Shown here: positions 567 to 16,727 of the stretch, in pieces
Layout of the letters: every line of letters starts with the position of its first letter
Numbering within the stretch: position 1 is the stretch's first letter
IMG/VR virus record: IMGVR_UViG_3300031227_004792
Coordinates: 1 to 24,482 of that record
Strand: one strand, 5' to 3'
From: a virus
DNA: 24,482 nucleotides
The notes under the pieces: generated by a model
Seen by the model: the letters and a program-made list of their open reading frames with translations, nothing else
Database searches by the model: none
Told to the model about the DNA's origin: nothing
Translations under genes and position numbers: made by a program

Positions 567-1028
567 ATGATAATTAAAGAAGAAATAATAACAAACGATA
601 AAAGAATAACTCTTAATAATGGAGCAGTTATTAATAGGTATTCGCACGTGAGAGCAGGGGCAGAAATCGGGAGAGATGTTATGATAGGTCAATGTTGTTA
701 TGTGGCACCTGATACAATGATAGGAGATTATACCAGAGTGCAAAACGGAGTCAGTATCTGGGATGGCGTTACAATAGGAAAAAACGTATTTGTGGGGCCA
801 GGAGTATGCTTTACAAACGATCATGATCCTGGAGAACGATTTGAACGTGATAAAAAAGGATTTGAATTTGTACCAGATAAAACCTATATACATGATAATG
901 TAACATTATGCGCATTCGCACTTATTATAGCGCCATGTGTAGTGTCAATTAATTCATTCGTTGCTGCCGGAACTACAGTATTAAGGGATGTATCAGCTAA
1001 TGAGCGAGTTTATGGAATAGCAAAATGA
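567..1028 (+). CDS. Hexapeptide-repeat (left-handed beta-helix) acyltransferase, WlbB-like
   Basis: A 153-residue protein with hexapeptide repeats of the form I-G-x-x-x from about residue 20 to 80 (for example AEIGRDVMIG and VTIGKNVFVG). A loop carrying FTNDHDP at 82-88 interrupts them, a further beta-helix turn follows (110-140), and it ends in VYGIAK, close to the usual VxGxPAK end of the family. Relatives such as WlbB transfer an acetyl group from acetyl-CoA to an amino sugar on a UDP-sugar during surface polysaccharide synthesis. The size matches a single-domain member. The true acyl acceptor cannot be read from sequence. Its stop overlaps the ATG of the dehydrogenase-like gene (ATGA), so the two are probably co-translated and may act on one sugar precursor. 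Confidence 0.8.
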   Translation: MIIKEEIITNDKRITLNNGAVINRYSHVRAGAEIGRDVMIGQCCYVAPDTMIGDYTRVQNGVSIWDGVTIGKNVFVGPGVCFTNDHDPGERFERDKKGFEFVPDKTYIHDNVTLCAFALIIAPCVVSINSFVAAGTTVLRDVSANERVYGIAK

Positions 1029-3112: not shown

Positions 3113-4372
3113 ATGGAACTATCCGACATACAATACGACTACCTTATAAACTCGACCTACGATATAAACCTAGCAACTGGAAGTATACGCTCAGGGAAAA
3201 CATTTATCCAATTAATCCGTTGGCATGAGTTTCTGGTTAATCAGGCAATACCAAACATCGATTGTTTAATCTCAGCTAAAAAGGGAGACGGGGCAGAGCG
3301 TAATTTGATTAAACCATTTCTGGACTTTGTAGAGTCTGAAAATTGCCGAGGGTTATATAAATATACTCGGATGCCTAGATGTTTGACATATTTACCAAAG
3401 AATATAAGCTGTTGGGTAGAAGGCGCCAACGATGAAGGCAGTGAAGCACGTATTCGAGGTATGACGGCACAAGCACACCTGGGCGACGAAGTAACATTAT
3501 ATCCGAAGTCATTTTTTTATCAGGCTATTGGTAGATGCAGTTCCGGTCTAAGAATTAAGTTTTACACGTGCAATCCAGACGCACCGAGTCATTATATAAA
3601 AGAAGAGATAATAGACAATCCAAAGGTCAATAAAAATGTATGGCATTTTAATCTATTAGACAATCCTAGTTTAGACCCTGCTTATAAGATACAACTGGAA
3701 AGCATGTATACCGGAGTATTCCGTCAACGGATGATTGAGGGCTTATGGGTCCAATCAGAGGGTATTATTTACGACTCATTTAATCGTAACAAATCAGTTA
3801 TTAAAGATTATCCGGCAACACAGATAAAAGAGTATGTACTAGGTATCGATTGGGGATATGAGCATCCATTATCTATTGTATTATGCGCTATTGATCACGA
3901 TGAGAATTATTATATCATTGATGAGATATATCGAAAGCATCAATTAATAGATCAATCGTTGAAGATAATTATGGAATCAAAAGGATGGTTTGATTTAAAG
4001 CGTGGTAGTGTAAGGATGCCGATTTCTTACAGCTATTGTGATACTAACAGACCTGAACAAATGGTAGAGTTCAACAGGCTTACAGGAATTCCCACAATGG
4101 GAGCATTAAAAAGCGTATTAGAAGGAATACAGGCGGTACAATCAACTATGACAGTCAGGCAGAACGGATTACCAAGATTATTCATTATTGATAAATGCGT
4201 TAATCTGTTAAAAGAGATTGGGTCTTATGCATGGAAGCAAAACAAATCCGGTGTTGGACGTGACGAACCCATTAAGGAACAAGACGATTTATCGGACGCA
4301 TTAAGATACCTCATATTCACTCGTGAGCGCAACAGACCGAGAATGATAACATCAAATCCATTTAGGAGTTAA
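3113..4372 (+). CDS. terL: Terminase large subunit (ATPase and nuclease)
   Basis: A 419-residue DNA-packaging motor. The N-terminal ATPase has a Walker A motif GSIRSGKT at 23-30, a conserved RIRG at 113-116, a Walker B region AHLGDEV at 121-127 (D125, E126) and a coupling segment TCNPDAPSHYIK near 152-163. The C-terminal RNase H-like nuclease shows GIDWGYEHP (D246), a second acidic site around E271 and DDLSDALRYL near 391-400 (D391/D392, D395), which fit its metal-binding acids. The length is typical for the family. It would cut concatemers and drive DNA into the prohead through the portal at 4819. GGAG lies upstream of the start. Confidence 0.95.
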   Translation: MELSDIQYDYLINSTYDINLATGSIRSGKTFIQLIRWHEFLVNQAIPNIDCLISAKKGDGAERNLIKPFLDFVESENCRGLYKYTRMPRCLTYLPKNISCWVEGANDEGSEARIRGMTAQAHLGDEVTLYPKSFFYQAIGRCSSGLRIKFYTCNPDAPSHYIKEEIIDNPKVNKNVWHFNLLDNPSLDPAYKIQLESMYTGVFRQRMIEGLWVQSEGIIYDSFNRNKSVIKDYPATQIKEYVLGIDWGYEHPLSIVLCAIDHDENYYIIDEIYRKHQLIDQSLKIIMESKGWFDLKRGSVRMPISYSYCDTNRPEQMVEFNRLTGIPTMGALKSVLEGIQAVQSTMTVRQNGLPRLFIIDKCVNLLKEIGSYAWKQNKSGVGRDEPIKEQDDLSDALRYLIFTRERNRPRMITSNPFRS

Positions 4373-4818: not shown

Positions 4819-6198
4819 ATGTCAGAAAAAGAAACATACAAATTCCCAGATGAGTCCAATTTAGTACGCATTGCACAGGAGCAGGCGTGGTATAATATGC
4901 TTATGTCAAAAGACTATGGCAATGCAAAGATGCTTTATAATAAACAGTCCGGAAAAATTGAACGTAAGATACTTGACCCTATGATTCCTATTCCTGCTAC
5001 GATATCAGATATAACATCAGATTTACTTTTCGGAGAATTTCCAAACATCGAAGTAGAGCAAGGCAATGAAACAATAAACGATGCTTTTAATGACTTTCTT
5101 TTCAACACCGATTTTGATACAAACGTATTGGAACTTGCAAACGTTATAAGTGCTCAGGGAACCGGATTTTGTAGATTTTGGAAACTAGACGGACAAACCT
5201 ATTATGATTTTGTCAAGGTATCGGAAACGATATGGCAAGAAGACAACTTTCAATTTACAAACGTTAAATTTATTGAGTCAGTTGAAAAGCAAGACAACGT
5301 TAATTTAGTATACGAGATACAAGAACATGATTTAGAAAACGGACGGCATGTTTTAAAGCATTACCGATTAATTACCGATGCTACGACTAGAGACGTAAAA
5401 GACCGTGTTGAAATTGATCCCGACATATACACAGACTTAGATTTTATCCCTGTTGTAAAGATACTTAATCAGGGGCAGTTAGGACGCAAGACCGGCCGTT
5501 CCGATTATGCAGGAAAAGAGCAGTTATTTAGTGAAATTGATAATCGTATCGACCAGAATAATTCTTTACTTGAAGAGAACGCCGATCCATGGATAGGGCT
5601 TCCACCTGGTATCTTAAATCAGAACGGACAATTTAATAAACAAAACGGTAAAATGTTTGAGCGTACAATATCAGGAAACCCGGGCGATAACGAAGTTAAT
5701 ATCATTGCTTGGGGGAGTGAGTCAATATTACCCTCAATGGAGCATACAAAACAAATGATAGAAATGTGTTTTTTTACCTCACGGATATCGGGTCCAATTG
5801 CAGGATTGACAACAAGCGAAGGCGGACAGGCAGAAAGCGGACGGGCGTTAAAATGGAAGTCTGTTAACACATTATCAATGATATCCAGAAAGCGTAAATA
5901 CTGGGATAACTTTATAAGACATTTTATTAAAATCTGGGGAGTTTTTGAAGGTCATGAGATTGACAAGAAAGGGATCATAATTGCATGGCAAGACGGTCTA
6001 CCAATGGATTCCGATGAAATGATAGATAGCACAGTAAAACAAGTACAAGCGCAAATCATGAGCCGGGAGACAGCTATTAAAAAAGCGCAAGAATTAGAAT
6101 TAGACGACGCAACCGCAGAACTCCAAAAGATCAACGGTGAAGAGTCAGCACGAGTCGCCCGGGAAACTGTTAATTTAAATGAGGCTATAACGATCTAA
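4819..6198 (+). CDS. Portal protein
   Basis: A 459-residue protein matching the portal family in size, position and local sequence. It directly follows the packaging genes. Its C-terminal third contains the SEGGQAESGRALKWKS segment, which resembles A118/SPP1-type portals. Twelve copies would form the ring at one capsid vertex that binds terminase, passes DNA and later joins the connector. The N-terminal MSEKETYKFPDES is unremarkable. AGGA at 4809-4812 sets the start. Its TAA overlaps the ATG of the minor head gene by one base (TAATG), so the two are translationally coupled. Confidence 0.88.
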   Translation: MSEKETYKFPDESNLVRIAQEQAWYNMLMSKDYGNAKMLYNKQSGKIERKILDPMIPIPATISDITSDLLFGEFPNIEVEQGNETINDAFNDFLFNTDFDTNVLELANVISAQGTGFCRFWKLDGQTYYDFVKVSETIWQEDNFQFTNVKFIESVEKQDNVNLVYEIQEHDLENGRHVLKHYRLITDATTRDVKDRVEIDPDIYTDLDFIPVVKILNQGQLGRKTGRSDYAGKEQLFSEIDNRIDQNNSLLEENADPWIGLPPGILNQNGQFNKQNGKMFERTISGNPGDNEVNIIAWGSESILPSMEHTKQMIEMCFFTSRISGPIAGLTTSEGGQAESGRALKWKSVNTLSMISRKRKYWDNFIRHFIKIWGVFEGHEIDKKGIIIAWQDGLPMDSDEMIDSTVKQVQAQIMSRETAIKKAQELELDDATAELQKINGEESARVARETVNLNEAITI

Positions 6199-7151
6199 TG
6201 GCAGAGGCAATATCAGCAATTCTTTTTACAGATATCGGCGCCGGTGCTGTCAAAGTACGTTTTCAGTTAGCTATGAGAGCATGGGAACGTGCAGTTATAA
6301 GCAAGACCGTTGTAAACATGTCAGACAAAGCGAAACGAGATTTTATTAATAATTGGTTGAATGATTTCACAAAGATATTTTCAAGCAATGAAGCAAAAGT
6401 AAATGTATTAAAAGCATTTAGTGGTGCAATATCTAGCACACGAACATTAGGAATTGAATTAAGCATAGATGATTTTTTAGACTCATACCGTGAGCAGTTA
6501 GCATTATTTAGTCGTACTGATTTTACAAAAGCAATGTTGCTCAGAAACGATGTAGCATCGAGAATGAAAGATTATAAAACGTTTTACTTAGAGTATGATA
6601 AATACTTAGACTCAGCGCAAACATTGGGATTATCTCAGCCAGAACGTGTCAACGGATTTTTAAATTCAGGTGGTAGAAAATACACTAATTTGAGAGACTC
6701 ATTTAGGTCACCAAAATTTCCAAACGGTAGACTATGGAAACCAGAGCGATACGCTTCTATGTATGCAAACACACGGGGTGCAGAAAGCTATGATAACTTT
6801 TTTCAACAATCGTACGTAGATAATGGCGGTGATATAGTTCAAGTATCTCAGCACGGCACGACTACTCCAGTATGTTTACAATATGAAGGAAAGTTTTTTT
6901 CCCTTACTGGTCGACAACAAGGTATTCAGCAATTAACAGTACGCCCGCCATACCATCCTAACTGTAAACATATTTTACAGGCTCGACCATTCGCAGAACA
7001 AAAACAAATGCGTACAAAAAACATTCAGGTTAACACAAAATATAATCAAGAAAAAGCAAACTTTACGAAGGGACAAAAAAGAACTATCCGAAAGCAAAAC
7101 GCTTACATAGTTAAAAACAGACCGCTAGTGGCCGTACCAATAGCAGTTTAA
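6198..7151 (+). CDS. Minor head protein (SPP1 gp7 / Mu F-like)
   Basis: A 317-residue protein with the C-terminal signature of phage minor head proteins: TTPVCLQYEGKFFSL at about 221-235, followed by RPPYHPNCKH at 249-258. The Cys/His pairs in these segments (C226, H253, C256, H258) are conserved in the family and probably bind a metal. The long N-terminal half is helical. Members sit inside the prohead near the portal and help early DNA ejection or head assembly. The position between portal and scaffold is standard. The end is basic and may contact DNA. Confidence 0.85.
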   Translation: MAEAISAILFTDIGAGAVKVRFQLAMRAWERAVISKTVVNMSDKAKRDFINNWLNDFTKIFSSNEAKVNVLKAFSGAISSTRTLGIELSIDDFLDSYREQLALFSRTDFTKAMLLRNDVASRMKDYKTFYLEYDKYLDSAQTLGLSQPERVNGFLNSGGRKYTNLRDSFRSPKFPNGRLWKPERYASMYANTRGAESYDNFFQQSYVDNGGDIVQVSQHGTTTPVCLQYEGKFFSLTGRQQGIQQLTVRPPYHPNCKHILQARPFAEQKQMRTKNIQVNTKYNQEKANFTKGQKRTIRKQNAYIVKNRPLVAVPIAV

Positions 7152-7170: not shown

Positions 7171-7758
7171 ATGGAAGAGCAAATAACAAAATCAGAACAA
7201 ATTGTAAATAAAGAGAGTACAGAGGAAATTGAGAAACAGTCTAGCAGGTCATGGACTCAAAGCGAAGTTGATGCTCACACCGCTAAATTACTGAACAAAG
7301 AACTTGAAAAGTTCAAGGGTTACGACGACATGAAAACCCAACTTGACCAGTTATTAACGGAAAAGAAAGCTATTGACGACTCCCAAAAGAGTGAAACTGA
7401 AAAGGCAACAGACGTAATTGCAAACCTTACAGAGCGTAACACGGAATTAGAATTGTTAACGGAAAACTTTAAAAAAGAACAACTTAGAAACTCAGTGCTG
7501 GGCGACCCTAAGTATTCGCAGTTAACCAAAGCATATCGAAATTTAGTGACGCTTTCATCGAGTGATGAAGAAGTAAGAAAAGCAGCAGACGCCGCCTTAG
7601 AAGAATACAAAACAGACTTTGCAGGGAGCGCAGCTAAAACATTCGGGATACCCGCGCCAAAACAAGACGACGTTGTAAAACCATCCGTAGTAGTTGACTC
7701 AGCAGACAAAATGCGAAACATTCTCAAAAGTAAAATAACCTCTATGCTCCAAAAATAA
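7171..7758 (+). CDS. Capsid scaffold protein
   Basis: A 195-residue, strongly acidic and helical protein, directly before the major capsid gene and after GGGGG in the Shine-Dalgarno position. The middle (about residues 40-110) is a coiled coil with Lys/Glu/Gln and contains TERNTELELLTENFKKEQL, the type of segment seen in gp20-like scaffolds. The C-terminus (MRNILKSKITSMLQK) is a short basic amphipathic helix of the kind that binds the inner capsid surface. It would guide prohead assembly and then leave. No protease is seen nearby, so removal may not require cleavage. Confidence 0.8.
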   Translation: MEEQITKSEQIVNKESTEEIEKQSSRSWTQSEVDAHTAKLLNKELEKFKGYDDMKTQLDQLLTEKKAIDDSQKSETEKATDVIANLTERNTELELLTENFKKEQLRNSVLGDPKYSQLTKAYRNLVTLSSSDEEVRKAADAALEEYKTDFAGSAAKTFGIPAPKQDDVVKPSVVVDSADKMRNILKSKITSMLQK

Positions 7759-7771
7759 TAAGGAGCCTATT

Positions 7772-8728
7772 ATGGCAGATACATTTATTGATATTGCAAG
7801 TCAAGCCGCAGTTATAGCAACCGCCCTTGATTCTATGAGTTTAAAAGCACTCAGACCAAAGTACATTTTTGACGGTGTAGCGTCAGGCAAAGTATGGAAC
7901 TTAAACGCCATGCCTAGAAAGGGTGACACTATTGAATGGCCGGTACTTGCAGCATTTTCAAGTAATACTGCAGCACTTGACCCAACGTCAACCGCTATTA
8001 ACGGTGGTGGTAAAACTACTTACACAAGAGCAAGTGTAGCAATGGACGCATATGGCGATTATTCAGTAATCGATACATTCGAGTTCGGAAGCGAAACTTT
8101 TATTGACATTGTGTCAGACGTTGCGTTTAGTTTACAAGATCAGGGCGCAAACTCTATAAACTTACTTGCACGAGCTGTAATTGATAAGAATAAGTATGCT
8201 AATAGTGTCTCGGGCACTTTGTCAAGTTCTTATCATTATTATGGTTCTCAAGGAACTGCATCAAGCGTGGGACCTTTGAAAGCAAAAGATGTTAGAGAGA
8301 TTGTACGTGATATGAAAGCAGATCATGTAAGCGCGTTCGATGATGGCTTTTATGTAGCTATTGTACACCCAACTCAAGCAAACCAGATCAAAGCAGAAAC
8401 AGGTAATGCCTCTTGGGGTGCTGCCGTTCTTGCAGGCGACCAATCCATCCAACAACGGTTCACCGGTGATATCGGTACTTTTGAAGGTGCTAGATTTATC
8501 GTTGATACTCAAGTTTCCGGTGGAGCAACTGGCACAATGTCAGCTTATTTTATGGGAAAAGAGGGCGTAGGAAAAGCAATCGGGCGAGACCTTAATGTTT
8601 CTCTTAAACCTTACTTGGACGGTCCCCACTCAAATCTATTAACAGTTCGTTGGAATGCGTTAATCGGTTACGGTGTAATCAGACGTCAAGCGGTAAGAAT
8701 TATAGAGTGTTCAAGCACAGTTCTATAA
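7772..8728 (+). CDS. Major capsid protein (N4-gp56 type, HK97 fold)
   Basis: A 318-residue protein with the pattern of the N4-gp56 capsid family: an N-terminal helix with LKALRPKYIFDG, then MPRKGDTIEWPVL, then a segment like MDAYGDYSVIDTFEFGS (compare the YGDYVEVTDLL pattern of the family), and a conserved C-terminal sheet region. It forms the icosahedral shell. A perfect AAGGAG sits before the ATG, as expected for a highly made protein, and a strong hairpin follows at 8745. The N-terminus looks unprocessed, since there is no long delta domain and scaffold is a separate gene. Confidence 0.9.
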   Translation: MADTFIDIASQAAVIATALDSMSLKALRPKYIFDGVASGKVWNLNAMPRKGDTIEWPVLAAFSSNTAALDPTSTAINGGGKTTYTRASVAMDAYGDYSVIDTFEFGSETFIDIVSDVAFSLQDQGANSINLLARAVIDKNKYANSVSGTLSSSYHYYGSQGTASSVGPLKAKDVREIVRDMKADHVSAFDDGFYVAIVHPTQANQIKAETGNASWGAAVLAGDQSIQQRFTGDIGTFEGARFIVDTQVSGGATGTMSAYFMGKEGVGKAIGRDLNVSLKPYLDGPHSNLLTVRWNALIGYGVIRRQAVRIIECSSTVL

Positions 8729-8744
8729 ACAATTTCAAATAATC

Positions 8745-8775
8745 CTATAGGGAGGGGGGAAACCCCCTCCCCTAT
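8745..8775 (+). terminator. Strong hairpin after the major capsid gene (probable partial terminator)
   Basis: ATAGGGAGGGGG pairs with CCCCCTCCCCTAT around a GAAA tetraloop, a stem of about 12 pairs with one bulged C. A GNRA loop on a G-C stem is very stable. The downstream sequence (CTTTAT) is not a full U-tract, so the hairpin may terminate only some transcripts or protect the 3' end of the capsid mRNA. No promoter is evident between it and the next gene at 8796, which implies read-through. Confidence 0.8.
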
Positions 8776-8795: not shown

Positions 8796-10805
8796 ATGAT
8801 TAAACTTTCAACATGCTTAATTCTACGGGATGAGGGCACAACAATTTATAAATGCTTAGACTCATGTAAGCACATTACCGATGAGTTCATTGTCGGTATT
8901 GACACAATAACCACAGACAATACAAAAGAAGAAGTAGTAAGATTTTTCCATGACAACCAAAACTTAAAGCATGAGATATACGACTCAGTATTTAATGAGT
9001 CATTTTCTAATGCTAGAAATATCGGTATGGATAAAGCAACAGGCGATTATATTATGATTATAGACGGTCATGAATATTTTCCCGAAACTTATTTTAACAT
9101 AACCGAGAATAGAGAAATCCCTATTAAGTCATTTTTGTCCGAGTGGAAAAAGAAGCAAACTGTTGACGCCGACGAAATATTTTTCCATTTATACCAACAG
9201 CCATTTATCGGGAAAATACCAAATAATTATTTTTTACAACCCAGAGTATACAGAAACGGAAAAGGTGATAATGGCAAAATGATACGATATGGTAGGGCGT
9301 CTCATAACGTTATACAAAATACCAACCCTGAAAAGTCAAGCCATTTTCCAGAGATCATCTTAATCCATGATGCACCGGATAGTAATCGTAAATGGCGCAA
9401 AGAACAGCGGATTAAAATGAATACTACGCAGTTAACCGCCGACCTTGAAAAGAATAGCAAAGATCATAGAGCACTTTTTTACTTAGGCAATACACACTTG
9501 GAGGCAACACGCTTTTATGATGCAATGGATTGTTACGAAAAGTATATTGCACTCAAGAAGCCAAACACCGCAGAGAAATACCAGGTATATTATCACTGGG
9601 CGCTTGCTCTTAAAGAAATTGACGATAAAGACGGTTCTATTGATATGCTTTATAAAGCTATGCGTATCGATCCTAGCCGGAGAGATGCTTATATATTAGC
9701 GGGCGATCTATGTATGGAAAGTGACCTAGTAGACGATGCAATCCACTTGATAAATAATGCTTTAATGATTAAACCACAAATAACTAGAATGTTTTCAGAC
9801 GGCAATATTAACACGTGGAAACCCTTTGAGATGATATCACGTGCTTACGAAATGAAGGGCGATCTAGTCAATGCAGGCTCACACCTTAAAATGGCTTTAC
9901 GATTTATAGACGTTCCTGAATGGCATGAAAAGCTTAATCTATGGGCGAAGGATAAAATCAATATCCTTGTCATAGATGCAATAGGCACATTTTCAAAACC
10001 AATTGTAGACAGCATAAAAGCCGATGGCCATAATGTAATTACAATTAATAAATATGATAACAAACTGGCATCATGGGCGGACTTAATCTGGCAGGAGTGG
10101 GGCGATAGTAATCTTATGTCAAATCAATACTTGTTTAAAACGGTATTGCGAATACACGGTTACGAAGCTTATTTAAATCAGGACATATTGAAATCAATTA
10201 ATCCTGAACACTTAAAAGCCGTTGTATGCGTTGCGAAACATATTCAAGACATGATACCTGCTCCGACTAGTAAACTTGTTTATAATGGAGTTGACTGTAA
10301 ATCTTTTTACGATAAAAAAACAAGCCGTGAAAAAGATACTATCGGATGCGCCGGATTAATGAACGTAAAGAAAAATCCTATGCGTTTGGCTCAGATTATA
10401 AAAGATTTTAAATATTATAACTTCCATTTACGGATAACATGGCAAGATCCTTTTTTACAAGAAGCGTTTAAATATGAAACACGTGATTGTAAAAATATAA
10501 TCTATCATGGGTATTATGATGACCTTAATGACTTTTGGAATAAAGTACAATACGTTATTAGTACCTCAGATATCGAGTCATTTAGTTATAACATAGCCGA
10601 AGCAATGGCATGTAATTGTATACCTCTAATATACAATTGGAAAGGTGCTAACGATATATGGCCGGAAGAATATATCTTTAAAAGCAATAATGAGATTAGA
10701 GAGCTATTGAAAATGCGCCATCACACAATTCAGCGCAAATTTATACTAGAAAAATACGAACAGAAAAAACAAATCAAACAATTTAAGGATGTACTCTATG
10801 GATAA
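8796..10805 (+). CDS. Fused glycosyltransferase: GT2, TPR and GT4-like domains
   Basis: A 669-residue protein with three parts. Residues 1-200 form a GT2 (GT-A fold) domain with IDGHE at 89-93 in the place of the usual DxD metal site. About 215-385 carries TPR-like helices (HRALFYLGNTHLEATRFYDA, then repeats with DAYILAGDLCMESDL). From about 388 a GT4-like (GT-B) domain follows, with ESFSYNIAEAMACNC near 594-608 giving the E-x7-E pattern (E594, E602) that binds the sugar nucleotide. A single chain thus holds two transferases, probably adding successive sugars, with TPRs as a scaffold. GGGGG precedes the ATG. It opens the sugar-transfer cassette after the capsid terminator. Confidence 0.85.
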   Translation: MIKLSTCLILRDEGTTIYKCLDSCKHITDEFIVGIDTITTDNTKEEVVRFFHDNQNLKHEIYDSVFNESFSNARNIGMDKATGDYIMIIDGHEYFPETYFNITENREIPIKSFLSEWKKKQTVDADEIFFHLYQQPFIGKIPNNYFLQPRVYRNGKGDNGKMIRYGRASHNVIQNTNPEKSSHFPEIILIHDAPDSNRKWRKEQRIKMNTTQLTADLEKNSKDHRALFYLGNTHLEATRFYDAMDCYEKYIALKKPNTAEKYQVYYHWALALKEIDDKDGSIDMLYKAMRIDPSRRDAYILAGDLCMESDLVDDAIHLINNALMIKPQITRMFSDGNINTWKPFEMISRAYEMKGDLVNAGSHLKMALRFIDVPEWHEKLNLWAKDKINILVIDAIGTFSKPIVDSIKADGHNVITINKYDNKLASWADLIWQEWGDSNLMSNQYLFKTVLRIHGYEAYLNQDILKSINPEHLKAVVCVAKHIQDMIPAPTSKLVYNGVDCKSFYDKKTSREKDTIGCAGLMNVKKNPMRLAQIIKDFKYYNFHLRITWQDPFLQEAFKYETRDCKNIIYHGYYDDLNDFWNKVQYVISTSDIESFSYNIAEAMACNCIPLIYNWKGANDIWPEEYIFKSNNEIRELLKMRHHTIQRKFILEKYEQKKQIKQFKDVLYG

Positions 10806-11514
10806 TGTCAGTGATAAATATTATGATGATAAATGGAAAAAAGTTATAAAACAATTACCTAACGGTGGTGATTATTATTTTAACATGAGACAGCACGGAT
10901 ATAATATCATCAAAGGTGCTATTGTAGACGGCTCAACAGTTTTTGACTATGCTTGCGGGCTAGGTGTTATTGATAAACAACTCGCAAATGATAAAGATTG
11001 TATTGTATCAGGCAATGACTTTTCGAGTGTTGCGGTTGACTACGTTAAAAGCCAAACACACGGAGATTTCAGAACTACAGGTGATTTTTTCCCGCAAGGT
11101 GGTAGATATGCTTATGTAATAGCTATCTATTTCTTAGAGCATATCAAAGAACCTGTTAAATGGCTTAACGAAGCGTTTCAATATACTGATACTGTTATTA
11201 TAGCTCTGCCAAACAATTTTCGACAGCTTGGAGAGCATGTTAATATGCAATGGAGTAATTGGAATGAATTTAAAATTTTATTTAAAGACTTTAACAGAGA
11301 GCGAATAGACGAGGGTAAATACCCCGATAAACTAAGTAATGCTTTTAAGCATCCAATATTTAAATTTACAAAAGGAAAAATTAATGCATGTATCGATGAT
11401 AGAGGAACTTCAGAAACCACAAATAAAGAAATTAGCGAAGGAAATGAAAAAGCTGAAAATGAAGAAACAGTTAAAGACGTTCCAAAAAAAAGAAGACGAA
11501 AAAAAAGAGTATAA
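10798..11514 (+). CDS. Class I SAM-dependent methyltransferase with a charged tail
   Basis: From the chosen ATG at 10798 the protein has 238 residues. Motif I is VFDYACGLGVIDK at 48-60, the acidic residue after strand 2 is in GNDFS at 72-76, and EHIKEP at 114-119 marks the helix after strand 4. This is a Ubi/Bio-type methyltransferase core, so a sugar O-methylation role is likely given the neighbours, though the substrate is unknown. The final 45 residues are low complexity: Glu/Asn-rich, then strongly basic (KKRRRKKRV). I chose 10798 over an in-frame ATG at 10789 because AAGGA lies 8 bases before it. It overlaps the upstream gene by 8 bases. Confidence 0.8.
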   Translation: MDNVSDKYYDDKWKKVIKQLPNGGDYYFNMRQHGYNIIKGAIVDGSTVFDYACGLGVIDKQLANDKDCIVSGNDFSSVAVDYVKSQTHGDFRTTGDFFPQGGRYAYVIAIYFLEHIKEPVKWLNEAFQYTDTVIIALPNNFRQLGEHVNMQWSNWNEFKILFKDFNRERIDEGKYPDKLSNAFKHPIFKFTKGKINACIDDRGTSETTNKEISEGNEKAENEETVKDVPKKRRRKKRV

Positions 11515-11539
11515 AAAAATAGATGATCCAATTATCTAA
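11384..11539 (+). CDS. Possible nested Lys-rich 51-residue ORF bridging methyltransferase and sulfotransferase
   Basis: In another frame inside the methyltransferase tail, an ATG at 11384 has a good Shine-Dalgarno AAGGA at 11372-11376 with 7-base spacing. It is open for 51 residues (MHVSMIEELQKPQIKKLAKE, then more Lys/Glu helix) and stops at 11539, 17 bases past the start of the sulfotransferase-like gene, whose own ribosome-binding site is weak. It could be a small coiled-coil protein or a leader that delivers ribosomes to the next start. It may also be chance, because A-rich DNA keeps Lys-rich frames open. Confidence 0.3.
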   Translation: MHVSMIEELQKPQIKKLAKEMKKLKMKKQLKTFQKKEDEKKEYKKIDDPII

Positions 11540-12110
11540 CTCTTATTACTTACACATACCGAAAACAGCGGGAACTTTTATAAGGCGTGTTCTAAAAGAA
11601 GCATCTTTATTTGAAAGTGAAATAGGTCATAGTCATGATAAAGCCTTTGACTATAGGCCTAACACTTTTACTTTTGTCAGGTTACCAGACTCATGGATTC
11701 AAAGTTTATGGAGTGATTGGAATAGAAATCATACTGCAAGAAATAGTAATAAGATAGGTATACGAAAAGGGATATGGAGTTATAAGACATTTTCGCCTGT
11801 TATGTTAGACATTGTAAAACCAAAACTAAATGATACTGTTGAATGTTTAATTAATAAGTATCCAGGCTTTATATCTCAAATGTATAAAGAGTATACTGCA
11901 AATTGTAACATGGTAGGTAAACAAGAAAATTTAAGAAATGATCTTATAACAATACTAACAACGTATGATGATATAAGCGATGATACGATCAATACAATTA
12001 AACGATATCCGAAACAAAACGTAAACGGCACAAAAGAAAAGATAGACAGCACACTTTTAAAAGAATTGCTCAACTCTGAAAGTTATATCATGGATAAATG
12101 GTATGGTTAA
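11523..12110 (+). CDS. Sulfotransferase-like protein
   Basis: A 195-residue protein whose N-terminus reads LHIPKTAGTFIRRVL (about residues 10-24), the 5'-phosphosulfate-binding loop (consensus HxPKTAGTS) of Golgi/carbohydrate-type sulfotransferases. FVRLPDSWIQSLW at 51-63 matches the 3'-phosphate motif (FxRxPxxRxxS, here R53, P55, S61). These residues bind PAPS, the sulfate donor, so the predicted reaction is sulfation of a sugar hydroxyl. The family usually runs 220-300 residues, so this is a compact version. Host-made PAPS would be needed, since no PAPS synthesis gene is in the window. It overlaps the GT8 gene by 8 bases. Confidence 0.75.
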   Translation: MIQLSNSYYLHIPKTAGTFIRRVLKEASLFESEIGHSHDKAFDYRPNTFTFVRLPDSWIQSLWSDWNRNHTARNSNKIGIRKGIWSYKTFSPVMLDIVKPKLNDTVECLINKYPGFISQMYKEYTANCNMVGKQENLRNDLITILTTYDDISDDTINTIKRYPKQNVNGTKEKIDSTLLKELLNSESYIMDKWYG

Positions 12111-12864
12111 TATATGTTTAACGTTTGATAATAATTATGTAAAGTACGTACTTACATTATGCAATAGTATCAATATTCATAATAAAAAAGTGTATTTTCA
12201 TTTTATTATTAATAATGTTGACTCCGAAACTCAGTACTATCTCGCTAAAAAGTTAAACGATCAATGTCAATTTTATCATAATATACCAGATATCGATCCT
12301 AATAAAATGTATGAAGGTAAAAGACTTAATAGTTATGCAATTTATAACACATTATATATAGCAACGCTTTTAAAAGATATTGACCGTGTATTATACTTAG
12401 ACGTTGACAGCCTTGTTATATCAGACTTAAGCGATATCTATAATATCAATACTGGAGTAAAAGGAATTGCAGCCGTTATGGATTATGGTAATAATGATCT
12501 ATTCGAATTAATTAATAACCAGGGGAAAATGGCAATACCTTTTATTAAGCAGGGAAAAGAAGTATTTAATAATTCTGTTATGGTAATGGATTTAAAAAAG
12601 CTTAGAGAAAACAATGCCGATGAGATAATGCAGTATATAGCACGTAAATTTATTACAAGTGATATGGTAGCACAAAATGTTTACGCAAATGGAGAGTGGG
12701 AACGATTAGACCGTAAGTGGTGCGTAAGTGCAAACCATGTAAAACTTAAATTATTCAAAGGTATTATGCAAAAAGACTTTAAAATATTAACATGGCATGG
12801 AGAGCATAAGCCGTGGAATACTGGACATATGCGAAGACATTGGGAAAATTATGAGTGCTATTAG
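12103..12864 (+). CDS. Glycosyltransferase family 8 protein
   Basis: A 253-residue retaining glycosyltransferase. The metal-binding DxD is YLDVDSLV (DVD at 100-102), the central conserved segment is FNNSVMVMDLKKLRE at 155-169, and the C-terminal HGEHKPWNT at 232-240 matches the HxxGxxKPW motif that contacts the sugar phosphate. Family members, such as LgtC-like galactosyltransferases and glycogenin-type enzymes, use UDP-sugars. Length and motif order are complete, so the enzyme looks intact. It overlaps the sulfotransferase-like gene and, by 14 bases, the next methyltransferase. Confidence 0.88.
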   Translation: MVNICLTFDNNYVKYVLTLCNSINIHNKKVYFHFIINNVDSETQYYLAKKLNDQCQFYHNIPDIDPNKMYEGKRLNSYAIYNTLYIATLLKDIDRVLYLDVDSLVISDLSDIYNINTGVKGIAAVMDYGNNDLFELINNQGKMAIPFIKQGKEVFNNSVMVMDLKKLRENNADEIMQYIARKFITSDMVAQNVYANGEWERLDRKWCVSANHVKLKLFKGIMQKDFKILTWHGEHKPWNTGHMRRHWENYECY

Positions 12865-13387
12865 CCGATATGAGCAAATACCATTAATTGTAGAGACAAT
12901 TATGAAAATACAGCCTAGGAAAATACTTGATATCGGGGCGGGGTTTGGTATGTTAGGATTTTTAACAAAAGCTTATATTGATTTATGGCAACGCAAATGG
13001 TTTAAGAAAAATCATATTACAACTATCCATGCGCTAGATGCTTATACAGATTACTATACTTTTCAGTACGATTTATACGATAAAATAATAAAAATAAACG
13101 TGTTAGACTTTAATGACTTTGATAATTATGATACAATCTATTGTTTCGATCTATTACAACACTTGAAAAAGGATAAGGCAAAAACCATATTAAATAAGCT
13201 AGAAAAGCATACCGGAAATGTATTATTAAGTATCCCGCTTGGTAATGGATGGATAAGAAACCATCCAGACCCATATGAGAGTCATTTAAGTGAATGGGAG
13301 ATTAAAGAATTAGTAGACTATGGTTTTAATCTACTCAAGGAATACAGCATACCAGACGGTAGAAAAATAGGTCTGTTTTTAAAATGA
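12851..13387 (+). CDS. Class I SAM-dependent methyltransferase (second in cassette)
   Basis: Starting at ATG 12851 the protein has 178 residues, with motif I ILDIGAGFGMLGF at 25-37, an acidic position after strand 2 in ALDAY, and YCFDLLQHL as the strand 4 region. It is a compact Rossmann methyltransferase with no extra domain. A longer in-frame start exists at 12797, but its extra 18 residues would lie inside the GT8 coding region and precede motif I without a conserved element, so 12851 is preferred. It ends in ATGA shared with the next gene. The substrate is unknown, and a glycan or its lipid carrier fits the context. Confidence 0.75.
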   Translation: MSAISRYEQIPLIVETIMKIQPRKILDIGAGFGMLGFLTKAYIDLWQRKWFKKNHITTIHALDAYTDYYTFQYDLYDKIIKINVLDFNDFDNYDTIYCFDLLQHLKKDKAKTILNKLEKHTGNVLLSIPLGNGWIRNHPDPYESHLSEWEIKELVDYGFNLLKEYSIPDGRKIGLFLK

Positions 13388-14025
13388 ATGATTGTTTTTT
13401 AAAATATAAAGATAAATACAAGGGTAAAAGCTGTATATTGTTTGGAACTGGCACGACACTTGACATGTACCAAAACAGGGACGATTTAATTAAGATAGGA
13501 AGTAATGAGATCATATACAAACCTTATAAAATGGATTTCTATTTTTTAGGAGACCCGGGCAGTAAGAAGCGAGGGTTTTTAAGTGACGAAAAAAGCTATA
13601 TTGATTATAAGCCAAACATTGATAAATTCTTCAGAAATCATGAAAATGACACCCATAAAGGAATAGTATGTGAATGTGAAAATGCATCATGGTATGATGT
13701 AACTCGCATGAAAAGAGCAAAGATAAAATTTAGCCCAGATATACATAGTGAAATTGTTGGGTGGGCATCGATCACTTACGAGATGATACAATTTGCAGTA
13801 TACGCAGGATTTAAAACGATTTATTTAGTAGGACATGATTGTAATTATAAAGAAGGCAGTTTTCATGATAAGGGTGAAGCTTTAACAAACAATGCAGTTA
13901 TAATACTTAAAATGTGGAAGCTTGTAAAAGAAAGCGTAACAGATACGAAGATATTTAGTATAAACAAAATAGGTTTAAATTTATTTAACGAAAAAGACTA
14001 TAAACATTTAGAGGGGCAAAAATGA
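13384..14025 (+). CDS. DUF115 / motility accessory factor-like protein
   Basis: A 213-residue protein with the features of the DUF115/MAF and GT42-like group: a Gly-rich start SCILFGTGTTLD near 16-27, KMDFYFLGDP at 49-58 (compare KPDYYxxxDP), and ASITYEMIQFAVYAGFKTIY followed by LVGHDCNY (128-155), which closely follows the pattern of these proteins. Members transfer nonulosonic acids or related sugars, for example onto flagellin, or are sialyltransferases. The exact activity here is uncertain. It shares ATGA junctions on both sides (13384 and 14022), so it is translated as part of the cassette. Confidence 0.7.
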   Translation: MNDCFLKYKDKYKGKSCILFGTGTTLDMYQNRDDLIKIGSNEIIYKPYKMDFYFLGDPGSKKRGFLSDEKSYIDYKPNIDKFFRNHENDTHKGIVCECENASWYDVTRMKRAKIKFSPDIHSEIVGWASITYEMIQFAVYAGFKTIYLVGHDCNYKEGSFHDKGEALTNNAVIILKMWKLVKESVTDTKIFSINKIGLNLFNEKDYKHLEGQK

Positions 14026-14201
14026 AAAAAATATCGTTTATGACAACAAATGATACAGATAAAATATTAAATGATCTGGAAATTATGAAAAAGTCATCAA
14101 TTAAAATGAATAATATTATTGCTGAATGGTTTTTATTAAAAAATGAAAAGCAAATATTAATTAGTAAAAAAGCTAGGAAGAAATTTTGGGGGATTATATG
14201 A
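14022..14201 (+). CDS. 59-residue protein, weakly ribbon-helix-helix-like
   Basis: A short gene between two cassette genes, with GAGGGG just upstream and ATGA junctions on both sides (14022-14025 and 14198-14201), which makes it very likely real. The N-terminus (KKISFMTTNDTDKILNDLEI then MKKSSIKMNNIIAEWFLLKN) could form a strand and two helices, the ribbon-helix-helix pattern, and it ends KKFWGII. A DNA-binding role is only a suggestion. Alternatively it could be a small partner of the neighbouring transferases. Nothing else is recognisable. Confidence 0.65.
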   Translation: MKKISFMTTNDTDKILNDLEIMKKSSIKMNNIIAEWFLLKNEKQILISKKARKKFWGII

Positions 14202-15064
14202 TTACAGCATCATTAATATTAATCAATTATAACGATAAAAAAAGGATATGCAGGGCGATAGACTCATGTATAAATCAAACGTGGAAAGACACCGAAGTAA
14301 TAGTGGTTGACGATGGAAGCGATAAAGAAACTCGGGAGCTTTATAAACAATATGGTGATAAAATAAACCTTGTACAATTAGAGCGTGACGATAAAGCAAG
14401 CCGAACACCTTCACGGGCACGTAATGCAGGCTACGAAAAAAGCACAGGAGACTACGTGGCTTTTCTTGATTCAGATAACTATTACGCTACAAATTTTATA
14501 TCAGAGTGCTTTAAAAACGAAGCAGACGTATATTTTGTTAACTGGGAAATCATCGGTTTACAATCTTATGTATGCGATATTGAGAAAGTTTGGGATTTTA
14601 ATGAGCAATTAATGAGTAATTATCTACGTTTTCAGCACATGGATCATCAATGTCTTTTGACAAAAAGAGAAATGTATGTTATACTTAAAGAACAGTACGG
14701 ACATTTATATGATGTAAGATTACCACGTTCACAAGACTGCGATTTAATTGTTAGATTGCTAAAGTCAGATTGTGAATGGCGGCACGTTCAAGAACGATTA
14801 TTCTTTTTTGAAAAGCATGAGTCAGACCAAAATAAGACTTACGCTTCAATACATGGAAAAACGCTCTGGACTCTCAAAAATGACATTAACTACGCATGGT
14901 TGATGGACATTATAAAAAAAGACCCTTTTTTAATAGCGTCATTCTATCAAGCTATTTTTGATTTCTCAAACGATCCACAATGGACAGTTGACTATGATAA
15001 ATCCGCTTACAAAAAAATGATGATAGAACACGCTAAAGTCTTAAACGGAGAGCGCAGAGAATGA
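14198..15064 (+). CDS. Glycosyltransferase family 2 protein
   Basis: A 288-residue GT-A enzyme. VVDDGSD at 36-42 binds the nucleotide, SRARNAGYEKSTGDYVAFLD leads into the metal site DSDN at 91-94, and SQDCDLIVRLL carries the ED-like acceptor site near residue 185. It would transfer a sugar from a nucleotide donor to an acceptor. The start at ATG 14198 has GGGGG upstream, while the in-frame TTG at 14186 is less likely. It overlaps the DUF285-repeat gene by ATGA (15061-15064), tying the cassette to a probable virion surface protein. Confidence 0.88.
   Translation: MITASLILINYNDKKRICRAIDSCINQTWKDTEVIVVDDGSDKETRELYKQYGDKINLVQLERDDKASRTPSRARNAGYEKSTGDYVAFLDSDNYYATNFISECFKNEADVYFVNWEIIGLQSYVCDIEKVWDFNEQLMSNYLRFQHMDHQCLLTKREMYVILKEQYGHLYDVRLPRSQDCDLIVRLLKSDCEWRHVQERLFFFEKHESDQNKTYASIHGKTLWTLKNDINYAWLMDIIKKDPFLIASFYQAIFDFSNDPQWTVDYDKSAYKKMMIEHAKVLNGERRE
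14657..14685 (+). promoter_or_regulatory. Possible internal promoter in the GT2 gene
   Basis: TTGACA at 14657-14662 and TATACT at 14680-14685 are separated by exactly 17 bases. The site is inside the coding region. It would allow transcription of the DUF285 and connector genes at a level independent of read-through past the capsid terminator and through the cassette. AT-rich coding DNA produces such matches by chance. Confidence 0.35.
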
Positions 15065-16224
15065 GTGTATTTTTAAGTGTTAACGGTGCGAAAACTAATG
15101 TATTATTATCGAGTGGTGGAGAGTTCACTTTTTCTCCAGACGCTCCAACCCATAAGTTTATTTTATTAGGCGCAGTTTCAAATATCGGAGTAACTGCCGG
15201 TGCTGCCTTCCCTTTACAAAGTGGTGGTACTTTTCACCATTATGCAACGCTTATGAGTCGGGTAACTAATATCCCTTTAACAGTAGACGGCCGAGTTATA
15301 GACTCAACAAGACTGGATAAATACTTACTACCATTCAGCAATGCCACCGCCACCACTTCCGAAAACGCTTTTATTTTCACCGTTAAAACCGACAATTTAG
15401 GTACTTCCACGGACGTTCAATTTTCATTACCTGTTAACGGTGGGACTTTCCTTTTTGATGCAGACTGGGGTGATGCGACAACAAGCGAAGGATTAACTGG
15501 AAACACTACACACACTTATGCAGTGGCAGGGACTTACACAATAAAGATAACTGGAATTTTTCCAAATATATGCTTTAATGATGGCGGCGATAAACTAAAA
15601 TTACTAGAAGTATCACAATGGGGAAATATTGTCTGGGGAACTTTGGAGGATGCTTTTTTTGGTTGCGCAAACTTTAATTTAACCGCCACTGATAAACCAA
15701 ATTTTTCAGTACTTGCAAGCCTTAGGAATTGTTTTAGAGGTTGTAGTTTATTTAATGGTGATATTTCACAATTAGACACCTCATCTGTTACAAATATTAT
15801 TGCGATGTTTAGAGGTTGTACAATTTTTAATCAGCCTGTTAATCATTTTGATTTAACAAATATTACTCAGCTTATTTCTGTATTCGCAGAATGTCCGGCT
15901 TTTAACCAGTCAGTTTCAAACTGGGATACAACAGGTATGACGAGTTTCACTAACCTTTTTAGAAGTTGCACTATTTTTAATCAAGACGTATCACATTTTA
16001 ATATTGAGTCATTAACAGTCGCAACAGACATGTTTGAAGCCACTGCATTTTCTCAAACTAATTATGACAAATTATTAATAGCATGGGAAGCGCAAACAGA
16101 ACTTGCAAATGTAGTATTTAGTGCTGGGCTTGCTAAATATGGGTCAGGAGCACCGGCAACAGCAAAAGCGGCACTTGAAGCCGCACCGAGTCTATGGATT
16201 ATAACAGACGGTGGCGCCGTATAA
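15061..16224 (+). CDS. PKD and DUF285-repeat protein, likely virion surface decoration
   Basis: A 387-residue protein. The N-terminal 100 residues are beta-rich and unassigned. Residues about 115-165 form a PKD-like Ig domain (FDADWGDATTSEGL then THTYAVAGTYTIKITG). Five 25-residue repeats begin at 221, 246, 271, 296 and 321 with the core xxFxxCxxFNxxVxxxDxxxxT (AMFRGCTIFNQPV, SVFAECPAFNQSV, NLFRSCTIFNQDV), matching the DUF285/BspA-like surface repeat. The C-terminus is Ala-rich. Sitting between capsid and connector genes, it could be a capsid decoration protein that binds a host surface or mucus, or the acceptor for the glycan made by the upstream cassette. There is no signal peptide, which fits a cytosolic assembly protein. 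Confidence 0.75.
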   Translation: MSVFLSVNGAKTNVLLSSGGEFTFSPDAPTHKFILLGAVSNIGVTAGAAFPLQSGGTFHHYATLMSRVTNIPLTVDGRVIDSTRLDKYLLPFSNATATTSENAFIFTVKTDNLGTSTDVQFSLPVNGGTFLFDADWGDATTSEGLTGNTTHTYAVAGTYTIKITGIFPNICFNDGGDKLKLLEVSQWGNIVWGTLEDAFFGCANFNLTATDKPNFSVLASLRNCFRGCSLFNGDISQLDTSSVTNIIAMFRGCTIFNQPVNHFDLTNITQLISVFAECPAFNQSVSNWDTTGMTSFTNLFRSCTIFNQDVSHFNIESLTVATDMFEATAFSQTNYDKLLIAWEAQTELANVVFSAGLAKYGSGAPATAKAALEAAPSLWIITDGGAV

Positions 16225-16244: not shown

Positions 16245-16727
16245 ATGAGTATACAAACAAGCATCGGAACGCCAACCGCAACAAGTTACATAAGCGTAGC
16301 AAGCGCAACAGAGTACTTTAACACAAGAGAAAGTTCGGAAGAGTGGCTCGACATGGGAACTACTGGCACTCTGGGAAGCACAGCACGTAGAGAAAATTTA
16401 CTTAAACAATCCGCCCGAGAACTTGACCGGACATATCGTTTTATGTCAAGTAAATATAATCAGGGGACTAGAAACGCCGATGATTTTCAAAACTTAGAAT
16501 TTCCACGAAATTACAACACCGATAATGATGGTGATTTATATATCCCGTTTGAAGTACAAAACGCACAATGCGAGCAGGCATTATACATTATGCAGAGAGG
16601 TGCCACCAGATATTCACAAGAAGCCAACAGCATAAACACGCCTTTTATATCAGAGGACGCTTACAGCTACCTTAAATTGCATATCACAAGACAAGTCGTA
16701 CCTGTTGGTAAACCATCCTGGAAATAA
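16245..16727 (+). CDS. Head-tail connector (DnaT-like/gp6-like adaptor)
   Basis: A 160-residue protein from ATG 16245, preceded by AAGGA; an upstream in-frame alternative start at 16194 lies inside the previous gene. The pattern GTPTATSYISVASATEYFNT, then a long helix with RRENLLKQSARELDR, LEFPRNY and a helical end, is that of the small phage adaptors often named DnaT-like ssDNA-binding protein. In this position it attaches to the portal to extend the channel. It is not expected to bind ssDNA in the phage context. Confidence 0.75.
   Translation: MSIQTSIGTPTATSYISVASATEYFNTRESSEEWLDMGTTGTLGSTARRENLLKQSARELDRTYRFMSSKYNQGTRNADDFQNLEFPRNYNTDNDGDLYIPFEVQNAQCEQALYIMQRGATRYSQEANSINTPFISEDAYSYLKLHITRQVVPVGKPSWK

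Follow-up and report, generated by a model that had tools for sequence, protein, structure and literature searches.

A glycosyltransferase island between the capsid and connector genes of a phage: conserved core, variable middle and a probable role in virion-protein glycosylation

Results

Gene content of the locus

The stretch of DNA analysed here, called the window, is a viral fragment of 24.5 kb (IMG/VR record IMGVR_UViG_3300031227_004792, positions 1 to 24,482). It carries an SPP1-like packaging and head module (terminase at 3113, portal at 4819, MuF at 6198, scaffold at 7171, and then the major capsid protein, MCP) and, behind the MCP gene, an island of sugar-transfer and modification genes (the cassette, 8796-15064), followed by a protein with PKD and BspA-type repeats, the head-tail adaptor, the neck and further tail genes (Table 1). 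A first-pass annotation, made from the letters alone, had placed seven recognisable genes and one small gene between the MCP and the connectors, and all of them were found where it had put them. The ATGA-coupled gene pairs that it described were likewise borne out, at 13384, 14022, 14198 and 15061, with the last of these overlaps coupling the final glycosyltransferase gene to the probable virion surface protein, as had been claimed. The other junctions are an 8-bp overlap at 10798, an 8-bp gap at 11523, an 8-bp overlap at 12103 and a 14-bp overlap at 12851. Table 1 uses corrected starts for the two methyltransferases (MT1 and MT2, the latter set by its ribosome-binding site), the last GT2 and the adaptor Ad1.

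Table 1. Features of the locus, with positions in the window; labels beginning with L denote viral loci used for comparison.
Feature	Positions	Strand	Evidence
Hexapeptide sugar acetyltransferase-like protein, outside the cassette	567..1028	+	PF00132, NeuD-like; homologues in L181 (41%) and inside the L191 island (37%)
MCP, first candidate acceptor	7772..8728	+	phrog_1357, E 1.5e-10; 53/50/31-33% identity to MCPs of L181/L182/L186
Terminator-like hairpin between MCP and cassette	8749..8773	+	about -25 kcal/mol, strong, T-rich tail
Core enzyme, GT2-TPR-GT4 fusion, 669 aa	8796..10805	+	Pfam; PDB profile matches; full-length homologues in L181, L182, L186, L183, L184
Core methyltransferase MT1, MetW-like	10798..11514	+	PF07021, 27.9 bits, above cut-off; 52% L181, 54% L182
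Sulfotransferase-like protein, variable middle	11523..12110	+	PAPS-site motifs; L205 homologue meets PF03567
GT8, variable middle	12103..12864	+	PF01501, 93.5 bits, above cut-off; LgtC-like in PDB search; DVD motif
Methyltransferase MT2, variable middle	12851..13387	+	PF13489 (Methyltransf_23), E 1e-4, below cut-off; DIGAGFG (DxGxGxG)
DUF115/GT42-like protein, variable middle	13384..14025	+	PF01973 (DUF115/MptE-like), E 3.5e-4, below cut-off
59-aa open reading frame	14022..14201	+	matches no family
Core GT2 (GT2b)	14198..15064	+	PF00535, 89 bits, above cut-off; 57/48/25% in L181/L182/L186; DSD motif
PKD + BspA/DUF285 repeat protein, probable virion surface protein, second candidate acceptor	15061..16224	+	PF03382, 116.7 bits
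Head-tail adaptor Ad1, right border	16245..16727	+	phrog_477, E 5e-15; 53% in L181

The first cassette gene encodes a fusion whose GT2 domain (43 bits), tetratricopeptide repeats (TPR; 28 bits) and GT4 domain (30.5 bits) all score above the Pfam curated cut-offs, with DGHE at residues 90-93 of the GT2 domain and a GT4 EX7E motif at 594-602. Against solved structures, a profile of the fusion family matched GmaR, the flagellin N-acetylglucosamine (GlcNAc) transferase (E 5e-31), SunS, a peptide S-glycosyltransferase (1e-21), and the TPR part of O-GlcNAc transferase, while the C-terminal part matched the GT4 enzyme WaaB. In the fusion, the GT2 domain is followed directly by TPR repeats, and this arrangement is homologous to solved members of the SgtA/GmaR/SunS type. 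The DxD metal site of those enzymes is absent: the window's fusion carries DGHE where related bacterial enzymes carry DADE or DADD, and DGHE or DAHE is found in all six fusions compared and in a seventh enzyme, that of L191. Because DxHE replaces DxD, we filed the fusions as a divergent clade of GT2-TPR glycosyltransferases. In Bacilli, relatives of the fusion adjoin collagen-like, spore-coat and ABC-transporter genes. A search of the open literature turned up nothing on this enzyme family in phages, although this does not prove that no such work exists.

Conserved core and variable middle in related phages

Two sister phages, L181 and L182, came from a search whose query aligned the GT2-TPR half of the enzyme with three bacterial relatives. 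L181 keeps the window's gene order from terminase to tail (54% identity for the terminase, 43% for the portal, 53% for the MCP, 53% for the adaptor and 55% for the tail tube), and its cassette holds the fusion (50% over the whole length), MT1 (52%) and the last GT2 (57%) without the sulfotransferase, GT8, MT2, DUF115 protein and 59-aa open reading frame (ORF). An unrelated 588-aa ORF, beta-helix-like by eye and matching no family, takes the slot of the BspA-like gene. In L182, the MCP (50%) and fusion (44%) are followed by an 86-aa ORF and a polysaccharide pyruvyl-transferase (PF04230), and then by the GT2 (48%) and MT1 (54%) in swapped order relative to the window; the sequence ends before the connectors. 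A more distant 87-kb record, L186, has an MCP at 31-33% identity, the fusion (27%), a DegT aminotransferase, an epimerase, a GT4, a radical SAM protein, a GT2 (25%), a 140-aa ORF and a Neck1 connector; its terminase and portal did not match those of the window, yet the linkage of MCP and cassette is still present.

The cassette is thus not one fixed set but a conserved core with a variable middle. The fusion and the GT2 bracket the middle genes in the window, L181, L182 and L186, the connectors come next in the window, L181 and L186, and MT1 is retained in L181 and L182. Across L181, L182 and L186, identity to the window falls in step for the MCP (53, 50 and 31-33%), the fusion (50, 44 and 27%) and the last GT2 (57, 48 and 25%). 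Since the first and last enzymes stay in place while the genes between them are exchanged, these phages may vary their coat chemistry in the way that bacteria do.

The same kind of enzyme also sits behind capsid genes of another family. In L183 and L184, the fusion (29 and 27% identity) lies 0.6-0.7 kb after an MCP of the phrog_10 family, past one 129-aa gene, and L185 has a 968-aa GT2-TPR-GT4 protein downstream of a head-protease gene and a 463-aa ORF of no assigned family. The D-x-H-E motif is invariant in six fusions (window, L181, L182, L186, L183 and L184) and present in L191, a comparative set that is small (seven DxHE records) and in which loci were ranked by likeness to the window's enzyme, with adjacency to an MCP gene being no search criterion. 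The DxHE enzymes cluster in a clade (support 0.93) together with the enzymes of L185 (DADE) and L187 (DGDD); in most of the remaining viral and plasmid GT2-TPR proteins, the motif is DxD. Behind the phrog_1357 MCP gene of the L191 phage comes a sugar island with an epimerase, an oxidoreductase (by eye), a hexapeptide acetyltransferase, a DegT protein, two GT2 and two more sugar-enzyme-like ORFs (by eye). The DGHE GT2-TPR gene of L191 starts 5 nt past a collagen-like gene with 91 uninterrupted G-X-Y triplets (62 of them G-x-T). The collagen-like protein with 91 such triplets is ORF 12252-13673 of L261 (reverse complement), directly before the DGHE GT2-TPR gene.

The terminator-like hairpin parts the MCP gene from the cassette, and the cassette is therefore probably transcribed at a lower level, by read-through. 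A hairpin in the gap between MCP and fusion also occurs in L181, L182 and L186, and L183, L184 and L185 likewise have predicted stable hairpins ahead of the fusion gene, with unrelated sequences; direct comparison is limited to the hairpins of the window, L181 and L182, which alone have a sufficiently compact form. In GC content, the cassette (0.327) lies below the head and tail genes (0.378), with the minimum in the middle genes (0.30-0.31), and the core genes are near background in the sister phages; a recent foreign acquisition of the cassette thus holds only in part.

How common the arrangement is

That most siphophages have no such genes at this place, as the first-pass annotation had stated, agrees with our finding that none of 50 viral records with related terminases has a GT2 domain (many of these records are fragments, and the same search, as a control, found both terminase and GT2 in the window). 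In the canonical relative Corynebacterium phage PSonyx, one small gene lies between MCP and adaptor. Streptomyces phage Spocter (L010:6809-12859) has an unrelated annotated methyltransferase and a 1101-aa protein between the MCP and the head-to-tail adaptor, and therefore the site accepts different accessory genes elsewhere. Scans of viral and genome collections with single proteins (MCP, portal, DUF115 protein, GT8 and fusion) returned no relatives, the exact 8-mer patterns used probably being too strict, and with alignments of terminase and MCP as queries, the only records to come back were distant relatives that lack a cassette. In a tblastn search of 50,697 phage records, MT1, the sulfotransferase, GT8 and the DUF115 protein had zero matches, and the other cassette proteins had partial GT2 matches only. 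The earlier suggestion that a cassette of this composition is new stands for the full set; the core is common to the sister phages.

Remaining cassette genes and flanking genes

The sulfotransferase-like protein has motifs for binding of 3'-phosphoadenosine 5'-phosphosulfate (PAPS), namely HIPKTAGT at residue 11 (5'-phosphosulfate-binding) and RLPDSWIQS at residue 53 (3'-phosphate-binding), but had no Pfam match itself and so lies below the PF03567 cut-off. Its viral homologue in L205 (32% identity, E 2e-15) has the same motifs and scores 42.9 bits against a PF03567 cut-off of 22. In L205, a 527-kb viral record, the PF03567 sulfotransferase gene (5809-6447, minus strand) lies about 4 kb from a GT2-TPR gene (10001-11404). 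The DUF115/GT42-like protein showed weak WaaZ-like and sialyltransferase-like matches, and the last GT2 a GtrB-like PHROG match. AlphaFold models made without an alignment were too poor for use (pLDDT 41 for the sulfotransferase-like and 30 for the DUF115 protein). No membrane helix was predicted in any cassette protein, the peak 19-residue hydropathy among the cassette enzymes being 1.32. The C-terminus of MT1 is Lys/Arg-rich (VPKKRRRKKRV), and the L181 homologue aligns to residues 10-195 only. An anti-phage defence function was considered and rejected, since the cassette matches no PADLOC model.

The PKD/BspA-type protein has the same size and architecture as a protein beside the packaging genes of phage KZY1. 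It also shares 40.6% identity over 70% of its length with a stretch of LR756500, a 462-kb uncultured phage. Far upstream, the hexapeptide acetyltransferase-like protein may serve the same glycan or pathway as the cassette, because its homologues occur in L181 and inside the sugar island of L191. Its gene overlaps that at 1025-1738, whose product is weakly similar to nucleotide-sugar dehydrogenase (left end). Positions 1-217 form a low-complexity repeat with all three forward frames open (e.g., GSGSGDGDGDG), and a gene for a surface or fibre protein may end here. Shine-Dalgarno-like sites are common in the window, and a Bacteroidota host is therefore less likely.

Discussion

A probable virion glycosylation locus and its alternatives

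We consider it probable that the island is a virion-protein glycosylation locus that acts in the cytosol on the MCP, the surface protein encoded nearby or both, a conserved core being joined by decorating enzymes that can be swapped. In the scheme that we infer (from the enzyme activities and the order in which they act to the acceptor, its linkage, sulfation and any benefit), the TPR repeats would steer the fusion's GT2 domain to a newly made virion protein in the cytosol, where it would put the first sugar on Ser/Thr (or Cys). The most likely acceptors, singly or together, are the MCP, encoded immediately before the cassette, and the PKD/BspA surface protein, whose gene shares an ATGA overlap with that of the last GT2. 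Chain extension would fall to the fusion's GT4 domain and to the downstream GT2, and methylation to MT1, and the exchangeable set between MT1 and GT2 (sulfotransferase-like, GT8, MT2 and DUF115/GT42-like) would add branches of its own, methyl and probably sulfate groups, with host nucleotide sugars, S-adenosylmethionine and PAPS as donors. Such a glycan could hide the particle from receptors, antibodies or grazers, or help it adhere to surfaces. Of the two uses that the first-pass annotation had offered, a sulfated, methylated glycan on capsid or tail proteins or remodelling of host surface sugars, the evidence favours the former, although not as one fixed set; "methylated" is reasonable, and "sulfated" is plausible on the strength of the motifs and one homologue.

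Phage glycosyltransferase genes often modify the host surface, and the enzymes could accordingly alter the host's capsule, O-antigen or teichoic acid, so as to convert its serotype or exclude superinfecting phages, their place in a late operon being incidental. Cyanophage glycosyltransferase clusters have been interpreted in this way (PMC7824862), and the GtrB-like match of the last GT2 fits such a role, as does the fact that the DUF115 and GT8 proteins have relatives (WaaZ-like and LgtC-like, respectively) that act on lipopolysaccharide in bacteria. We judge this quite unlikely nonetheless, given that the cassette has no flippase, polymerase, membrane-anchored glycosyltransferase or membrane helix (i.e., the hallmarks of GtrABS serotype conversion were not found in it), that the solved GT2-TPR relatives of the core enzyme use proteins or peptides, that the genes lie behind the MCP, past a hairpin, in phages of two MCP families, and that late expression, if the phage is lytic, would leave little time for remodelling the host. 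Modification of DNA bases rather than protein seems highly improbable: virus-encoded glycosyltransferases that act on DNA are known (cited in PMC12619734), but the cassette has no base-modifying or nucleotide-metabolism genes (the record is a fragment, and such genes may lie elsewhere), sits among virion genes and is homologous to peptide and protein glycosyltransferases. Hence, we favour virion glycosylation because the fusion is homologous to protein-directed glycosyltransferases, lies behind the MCP in two capsid families and belongs to a cassette without the membrane proteins that serotype conversion needs.

Which virion protein would be modified is a separate question. The GT2-TPR and fusion genes adjoin the MCP gene or, in L191, a collagen-like gene, with the acceptor role of these neighbours being putative. 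By position and co-inheritance, the MCP is most likely the leading acceptor and the BspA-like protein the second. It is rather unlikely, in our view, that only the neighbouring surface protein (BspA/PKD, or the 588-aa ORF product in L181) or a tail protein is modified, the MCP being unmodified and its adjacency reflecting a tolerated insertion site. Such a reading, which is a sub-case of virion glycosylation, would account for the ATGA coupling of the GT2 and BspA-like genes, for the L191 GT2-TPR gene that touches a collagen-like gene and not the MCP, and for the unrelated genes at the same site in Spocter. Against it, the slot protein differs between the window and L181 while the fusion (50%) and MCP (53%) persist, so that the conserved partner is the MCP.

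Several points weigh against glycosylation of virion proteins, beyond the cyanophage precedent: the modification and its acceptor are read here from genes alone, DGH stands in place of DxD in the GT2 domain, where catalysis at the DxH site would have to be presumed (the motif being invariant in the phage fusions), the C-termini of the MCPs have no special Ser/Thr tract beyond those of cassette-less phages, which also suits modification of the surface protein only, and the sulfotransferase-like and DUF115 proteins are weakly assigned.

A broader model is possible, and we advance it tentatively, short of calling it likely: several unrelated phage lineages may share a head-linked protein O-glycosylation system, in which a DxHE GT2-TPR(-GT4) enzyme behind an MCP or collagen-like virion gene is combined with an exchanged, hypervariable sugar cassette, making up a capsid serotype locus like the O-antigen and flagellin-glycan loci. 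By gene content, the predicted chemistries of these hypervariable cassettes are sulfation, pyruvylation, and amino-sugar or methyl modification.

Most documented cases of phage virion glycosylation are in mycobacteriophages, whose particles it protects from antibodies. The locus described here suggests independent, modular virion glycosylation in environmental phages, the design of whose enzyme is also that of bacterial enzymes for flagella, spore surfaces and glycocins. If so, capsid surface chemistry would be a fast-evolving trait with a locus of its own, and would matter for the stability of particles, their adhesion to surfaces, their loss to grazers and their use of receptors; phages that glycosylate their virions could then be recognised readily by the DxHE enzyme as a marker.

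Comparison with known systems

The nearest phage parallel is mycobacteriophage cluster O (Corndog, Firecracker), which, like the window, has a methyltransferase and several glycosyltransferases inside the head-gene module of a siphophage: Corndog-type phages carry an O-methyltransferase and glycosyltransferases between portal and protease (PMC4351075), and two further sources report capsid and tail-tube glycosylation for the group (PMC11600133, PMC12363180). Cluster O differs in its portal-to-protease site and in that no TPR fusion, GT4, GT8 or sulfotransferase is described there. The cassette showed no match above chance to Firecracker gp33-36, so the island would work like the cluster O system without being a homologous member of it.

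Two further likenesses are by analogy only. Chlorovirus PBCV-1 (A064R) also combines virus-encoded, cytosolic MCP glycosylation with a fused multi-domain glycosyltransferase and glycan methylation (PMC7019647), in a eukaryotic virus, and Caulobacter FlmG, a modular enzyme that O-glycosylates flagellin, owes its specificity to a separate substrate-binding domain (PMC7591256), with the domain order reversed relative to the fusion and pseudaminic acid as donor.

The closest kin by design are C. difficile SgtA, Listeria GmaR and Bacillus SunS, all of which have an N-terminal GT2 followed by a TPR or helical domain, as in the fusion, and a gene often beside that of the acceptor; GmaR and SunS are its closest relatives of solved structure. 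GmaR joins a glycosyltransferase to TPR repeats proposed to recognise flagellin (PMC9638930), and SgtA (GT2 plus TPR) adds the initiating O-GlcNAc to Thr of collagen-like BclA3, encoded next door (PMC7157674). The phage fusion departs from these enzymes by an extra C-terminal GT4 domain, by DxHE for DxD and by an acceptor that is putative, and the collagen-like/GT2-TPR pair of L191 resembles the bclA3/sgtA gene pair of C. difficile.

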